Assembly: GCF_021431925.1 (NCBI RefSeq) | Contig: NZ_CP090371.1 | Location: 434,001-498,000 of the forward strand | Reading direction: 5' to 3' | Length of the DNA: 64,000 nucleotides | Source of the DNA: Halobaculum sp. CBA1158 | GTDB lineage: Archaea > Halobacteriota > Halobacteria > Halobacteriales > Haloferacaceae | Shown here: positions 12,588 through 13,084 of the stretch, piece after piece | Position numbering within the stretch: the first letter of the stretch is position 1 | How the letters are laid out: every line of letters begins with the position of its first letter | Program-made: the position numbers and the translations under genes | Notes under the pieces: generated by a model | Databases searched by the model: none | The model's input: only the letters and a program-made list of their open reading frames with translations | What the model was told of the DNA's origin: nothing

Positions 12588-12610
12588 GTGCAGGTCGTTT
12601 TGTCTCCGGT

Positions 12611-12685
12611 AGCGGGATGGGATAGCCAGGAGATTCCGCCGGGCTCATAACCCGGAGATCGGTAGTTCAAATCTACCTCCCGCTA
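12611..12685 (+). tRNA. Initiator tRNA-Met (CAT)
   Basis: 75 nt. The acceptor stem AGCGGGA pairs with TCCCGCT; the anticodon stem CCGGG/CCCGG surrounds loop CTCATAA with anticodon CAT at 12646-12648; the T-arm is GGTAG-TTCAAAT-CTACC. The A1-T72 pair and three consecutive G-C pairs at the base of the anticodon stem identify the archaeal initiator rather than the elongator. There is no intron and the CCA end is not encoded. Two partial copies of its 3' end follow downstream. Confidence 0.96.
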
Positions 12686-12755
12686 TGTTCTGCGCGCGCA
12701 CCGCGAGTGACGAACGGATGTGAGTCACGAGCCGCGCGCGGTCACTCGTTCCGGA

Positions 12756-12816
12756 GTAGATTTGAGCAGGGAGAGAAGCGAGCGTCAGCGAGCGAAACGA
12801 CTGTGTTCAAATCTAC
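12756..12816. repeat. Hairpin with anti-T-arm, repeat unit 1
   Basis: GTAGATTTGA at 12756-12765 is the exact reverse complement of TCAAATCTAC at 12807-12816 in the second tRNA-tail copy, with a 41 nt loop. Confidence 0.7.
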
Positions 12817-12890
12817 CTCCCGCTACTTCTCGCCGCACACCGCGAACGACGAACGGAGTGACTCGTGAACCGTGCGGCGGACTTCGTCTT

Positions 12891-12962
12891 GAGGTGGATT
12901 TGAAGTGGACCGGACGCACGCAGCGCCAGTGAGCACGTCCGGGCGTGGTTCAAATCTACCTC
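12891..12962. repeat. Hairpin with anti-T-arm, repeat unit 2
   Basis: GAGGTGGATTTGAA at 12891-12904 pairs along all 14 positions with TTCAAATCTACCTC at 12949-12962, allowing one G-U pair in RNA; the loop is 44 nt. Confidence 0.7.
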
Positions 12963-13084
12963 TCGCTATGTTCTGTCGCCGAGGCAACGCGAGAAGCGGC
13001 GCGAACCGCGAGCCGACCGACGACCCATCCGCCCCGCCGCCACGACCGATGTTGTTTTCACACGTCTGCGTTAGTATTCGCCGT

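Follow-up and report, generated by a model that had tools for sequence, protein, structure and literature searches.

Host-matched antisense arms in tRNA-tail hairpin arrays downstream of haloarchaeal tRNA genes

The repeats behind the initiator tRNA gene of Halobaculum sp. CBA1158 are no local oddity but belong to a large set of haloarchaeal tRNA-tail hairpin arrays. The arrays are real, widespread and tied to tRNAs. Their units are built in the following order: a tail (T-loop to 3′ end), a U-rich trailer, a hairpin (H1), an antisense arm, a core hairpin and the next tail. The best of several readings, to which we give a probability of about 0.4, is that they are palindromic cassettes without genes, specialised on tRNA 3′ ends, which would be added beside the tRNA and recombine where copies of the T-arm lie.

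The window, i.e., the whole 64-kb stretch of DNA that was analysed, contains the following features at the initiator tRNA locus.

12610–12685, plus strand: initiator tRNA-Met(CAT) (ARAGORN, which gives 12610–12686; Rfam RF00005, 12611–12685, 60.5 bits)
12665–12685, plus strand: tail of the initiator tRNA (last 21 nt), part of tRNA-Met(CAT)
12686–12754, plus strand: U-rich trailer (TGTTCTG) and GC-rich hairpin H1 of unit 1 (sequence; RNA folding)
12755–12766, minus strand: antisense arm of unit 1, AGTAGATTTGAG, against the T-loop and T-stem 3′ strand of the tRNA (sequence; RNA folding)
12767–12804, plus strand: class A core hairpin of unit 1 (CAGGGAG..CGACTGTG) (sequence comparison)
12805–12825, plus strand: tail copy 2, exact (direct-repeat search)
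12826–12890, plus strand: trailer (CTTCTCG) and hairpin H1 of unit 2 (sequence; RNA folding)
12891–12904, minus strand: antisense arm of unit 2, GAGGTGGATTTGAA (sequence; RNA folding)
12905–12947, plus strand: class B core hairpin of unit 2 (GTGGACCGGACG..CGTCCGGGCGTGG) (sequence comparison)
12948–12968, plus strand: tail copy 3, one mismatch (direct-repeat search)

The original prediction held that the 21-nt tail of the initiator tRNA recurs twice and that each unit carries an inverted copy of the T-arm side, on which it can fold back. The tail repeats at 12805–12825 and 12948–12968 were confirmed, with spacings of 140 and 143, and the inverted copies lie where they had been placed (GTAGATTTGA at 12756–12765 and GAGGTGGATTTGAA at 12891–12904). 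RNA folding agrees with the fold-back as well, each arm pairing mainly with the start tail of the unit it belongs to (7 and 9 of 9 arm bases). No further match of at least 15/21 to the 21 nt of the tail was found on either strand of the whole window, and Rfam reported nothing above the gathering score between 12500 and 13100 except the tRNA itself. A weak, sub-threshold Rfam match to Plastid-ycf2 (22.7 of 65.7 bits), which runs antisense to the tRNA at 12611–12686 on the minus strand, was taken as chance. The genes adjoining the array (GtrA-type, PF04138; an unknown ORF; Rieske, PF00355) are all ordinary, and no integrase is among them. In a comparison of the locus in 11 genomes, 10 of which were read, the A-then-B order was seen only in the window; one congener has A only, one has B only and seven genomes show no unit.

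The original prediction had suggested looking for further copies after other tRNAs, and a search with 431 bp found six more places in the same genome; these places and the matches in ten congeners are mostly downstream of other tRNAs. When 700 bp downstream of all 44 tRNAs of the genome were scanned, tail copies were found at 17. A survey of five haloarchaeal genomes, covering the 178 tRNA loci that passed the script, gave downstream tail copies at 90/178 tRNAs and at 1/178 in the upstream control. By genome, the counts were 17/44 (G000), 21/39 (G206), 20/36 (G414), 20/38 (G024) and 12/21 (G334, covered only in part). Two looser controls also scored: the tail of an unrelated tRNA at 31/178, because tRNA tails have the T-loop in common, and an antisense scan at 47/178, because the arms themselves are picked up. 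A generic antisense arm was present within 200 bp of 80/90 tRNAs with tail copies versus 33/88 without them, and upstream of 25/178. The median length of the survey units is 126 bp, and every tail copy has a pyrimidine-rich trailer behind it, of the kind seen after tRNAs.

The pattern GATTTGAA-N25..55-TTCAAATC occurs in 125 of the 148 genomes of the family, representing 24 of 28 genera; the reversed control gave 0/148. Across the phylum, this generic arm/tail pattern was found in 46 of the 53 sampled genomes of the strain's own order and in 15/241 elsewhere. The latter 15 genomes have a single match each, those listed look unrelated, and the control gave one match. Out of 120 stretches fetched, 80 loci with the class B core were examined. 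Since 78 of the 80 listed carry haloarchaeal names, the order with arrays is probably Halobacteriales. Of these 80 loci, 73 have a same-strand tRNA within the preceding 400 bp. The seven others comprise two with partial tRNAs (L113, L114), four near the locus edge (L119, L140, L163, L176) and an unrelated one in an alphaproteobacterial MAG, not at a tRNA (L123). By eye, the arrays of L113 (2993) and L114 (6515) follow partial tRNAs that resemble the attR ends of other elements; possibly, an integrated element separated the tRNA from the array. One locus (L145) comes from a MAG named Bacteroidetes with a haloarchaeal-looking tRNA-Val array, which is probably a binning error. The viral collections gave one match, to a GC repeat away from a tRNA, and matches in the plasmid and phage collections were mostly to the tRNA gene itself. 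Initiator-tRNA-like sequences were observed on haloarchaeal plasmids (Natronorubrum, Haloferax, Halococcus, Halorussus and others; plasmid-search matches numbered H1–H13).

The arms were first picked as the best match to their own tails (survey through folding), and the key counts were redone with a tail-neutral pick, by which an arm is present in 115/163 survey units. With the latter, arm and tail agree at base 57 in 112 of 113 A/G cases (79 A/A and 33 G/G, with 1 mismatch), and the tails of two further units carry C. The identity of arm and own tail at base 57 was 0.97 (115 units) versus a shuffled mean of 0.57, the highest of 500 shuffles reaching 0.69. Agreement was above all 500 shuffles at bases 59, 62, 63 and 64 as well, and no general agreement was found beyond base 65. 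The arm is thus the antisense of the T-loop and the T-stem 3′ strand. A general reach of the arm into the acceptor strand was rejected (mean longest exact match 2.87 versus 2.75 shuffled); single units with such an arm are L260 and one at tRNA-Gly-CCC. Tail copies with one extra T-loop base (TTCACAATCC type) were seen behind various tRNAs (L120, L170, L207, L215, L223, L266, L307, L318, L336, L337, L356). Antisense arms had been flagged as unexpected for plain attachment sites; they are kept order-wide and track the host tRNA sequence, which makes array after array more than such sites, and relatives did not turn out to have simple attachment sites devoid of conserved arms.

Along the arrays, the identity of tails to the tRNA falls with copy order (0.924, 0.900, 0.887 and 0.850), and it is 0.873 for the last copy versus 0.940 for the others. 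Units behind different tRNAs of one genome are up to 80–89% alike across most of their length. The Leu-tag and Val-gac units of G206 are 86% alike over 115 bp and the Arg-cct and Arg-tct units 89% over 85 bp, with arm and tails fitting each host. At tRNA-Leu(taa) of five Halorubrum genomes, shared H1 and core modules are combined differently: core A1 (0.91–1.00 identity) is found together with three types of H1, and three different cores accompany H1 type a. This exchange could be ordinary homologous recombination.

In the cassette reading that we prefer, gene-less miniature cassettes would insert at the tRNA-proximal T-arm and thereby restore the tRNA end, newer cassettes pushing older units outward. 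Hairpin modules may be swapped at plus and minus T-arm copies by site-specific or hairpin-based recombination in trans. The arm would be the part that has to fit the tail of its own unit, as it would if the unit were a circle. Several results speak against this reading. The searches turned up no recombinase: the integron integrase (TIGR02249) was over the cut-off in 0/22 genomes, and the Y1 transposase (PF01797) showed no link to the arrays, being absent from the array-rich G334 while several genomes that lack pattern matches have it. Neither a circular unit nor a clean empty site nor strain-level gain or loss was seen.

The fit of the arm to its own tail can be examined in units with different bases at position 57 of the start and end tails. 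In these, the arm has the base of the start tail 12 times and that of the end tail 2 times by the tail-neutral pick (14 and 1 by the first pick); since the start tail mostly has the tRNA's base at this position, decay of the end tail also explains the excess. In only three loci (L118, L260, L275), which alternate along the array, does the arm of a later unit follow a start tail unlike the tRNA, and two cases (L029, L137) are opposite. A preference for the start tail, judged from this small number of sequences, agrees with units in which arm and own tail were formerly adjacent, as in a circle. Patterns for alternating arrays were found in 0/372 and 4/372 genomes. Four extra alternating loci, viewed by eye and uncounted, look start-matched (L359, L360), ambiguous (L361) and end-matched (L362). 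RNA folding of 298 units gave arm pairing to the end tail in 174 cases and to the start tail in 113, so folding alone gives start-tail pairing no preference. Units with at least three differences in the first six bases (X-type) were left out of the start/end counts. In such units (L051, L023, L094, L097, L101, L188; e.g., end tail CGTGACTCCCG), the end tail is kept only from about base 59–60, which would suit a joint placed more to the right within the T-loop.

It is possible, although doubtful, that the arrays are mutational palindromes. Fold-back and template-switch synthesis at the 3′ ends of highly transcribed tRNAs would produce direct as well as inverted tail copies, and quasi-palindrome correction and gene conversion would keep arm and tail matched to the tRNA, with no mobility and no function. 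This would explain both the host-matching arms, without a recombinase, and the decay of units with distance from the tRNA. L260 has two compensating changes in tail and arm that accompany an identical H1 loop, and own tails stabilise the start hairpin by a mean of 5.95 kcal/mol over random tRNA tails. However, core junction sequences are common to different tRNAs and genera, and unit similarities are strongly same-strand (995 versus 23), neither of which such a process explains.

A reading in which the units act as transcribed structures is rather doubtful. In a read-through RNA, the arm would pair with a T-arm, either the tRNA's or that of a tail copy, and might serve in termination, in 3′ processing or as a small-RNA source; in the original prediction, RNase Z might cut each tail and so make small RNAs. 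The tRNA-like trailers point in this direction, as do the inner stems, which covary with alternative G-A pairs: core stem pairs (5,2), (6,1) and (7,0) are Watson–Crick in 0.73, 0.73 and 0.94 of 49 distinct core ends (55/79 loci, with fixed length, were used) versus 0.43, 0.42 and 0.62 after shuffling. In the pooled set, T-loop arm changes that keep a wobble pair (T>C, 23/609) exceed those of A-C type (A>G, 9/795). However, the first test showed no excess (40/372 versus 42/432; 70/80 loci measured, 9 having no recognised tail start and one being lost at a locus edge), and the survey alone was too small to call (8/245 and 0/35 versus 4/317 and 4/243). Wobble asymmetry was thus inconsistent across three tests and was rejected as proof of RNA pairing; a count of 84 to 23 mixes neutral decay with pairing and is no such proof either. 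About half of the tRNAs have no array, which also speaks against this reading. The core tips are C-GNA-G triloops, which suit DNA hairpins, in 77/110 survey cores versus 32 in mononucleotide shuffles; the count was taken from the survey only, as the wider set included loci picked by a pattern with the same tip.

A more far-reaching version of the cassette reading, which we consider unlikely, is an integron-like system on the tRNA genes, whose gene-less hairpin cassettes would be taken up at the T-loop in folded, single-stranded form. The arm would then be a guide rewritten for each host tRNA, and the arrays would log insertions in order, perhaps as decoys against integrating viruses.

Plain attachment-site footprints of serial virus or plasmid integration and excision at tRNA genes are quite improbable: although L113 and L114 lie behind partial tRNAs and the tail duplication is typical of integrase elements, antisense arms and shared cores recur array after array, the single viral-contig match is away from a tRNA, and the units are too short for genes and have a regular order and polarity. 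Repeated integration and excision, as envisaged in the original prediction, would account for a part of the arrays at most, given the unit length on one side and two of 80 class B core loci on the other.

If the cassette reading is true, a whole archaeal order has a tRNA-bound repeat system with arms rewritten for each host gene. This would bear on the survival of tRNA genes as integration targets, on the movement of gene-less palindromes and on the annotation of tRNA fragments. No description of haloarchaeal tRNA-tail arrays was found in the literature searched, including the available portions of PMC3119063, PMC9897764, PMC8371274, PMC7237163, PMC7923331 and PMC9668308; individual cases may be on record in older papers or in subscription journals.

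Several known systems resemble the arrays in part. Integrase elements leave behind a second copy of the tail, spanning T-loop to 3′ end, according to the available text of PMC9897764 and PMC8371274. Tyrosine recombinase-borne integrative elements of archaea are alike in target and in this duplication, but the arrays have antisense arms and no element body. The direct tail repeat of plain attachment sites is present, whereas a flanked element with integrase genes is not, and units with a median of 126 bp are too short for an integrase gene. Casposons have target-site duplications at tRNA 3′ ends around an element with terminal inverted repeats.

IS200/IS605-type PATEs use a Y1 transposase supplied by the genome, whereas G334 has arrays without PF01797; guide pairing at a cleavage site beside a hairpin resembles the arm, hairpin and tail in layout only. 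PATEs and SMRs of Haloquadratum are likewise short non-coding palindromic haloarchaeal repeats (PMC3119063, available part); SMRs are described there as mainly targeting other mobile elements, and that part does not mention tRNA tails.

Arrays of intergenic palindromes are also formed by REP/BIME elements. To our knowledge, these are not tied to tRNAs, and their arms hold no copy of a neighbouring gene. The 178-bp repeats of E. coli tyrT (rtT RNA region) are reportedly tandem units after a tRNA, each with its last 19 bp; we know of no further locus and of no antisense arm following the tRNA there. Tandem tail-bearing units behind a tRNA are shared with the haloarchaeal case, which is order-wide and, in the survey, involves roughly every second tRNA.

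Integron cassette arrays and CALINs differ in that the haloarchaeal units have no cassette genes, are anchored at tRNAs and occur without an integrase over the cut-off (22 genomes). The R′ box of attC has the consensus GTTRRRY; by eye, the units show GTTCRAN at that place, which does not fit it. Both systems have an ordered array, a folded inverted-repeat site with a variable hairpin and an arm that fits the unit's own start, and the polarity from a fixed anchor, typical of integrons, is seen here in the fall of tail identity from 0.924 to 0.850.
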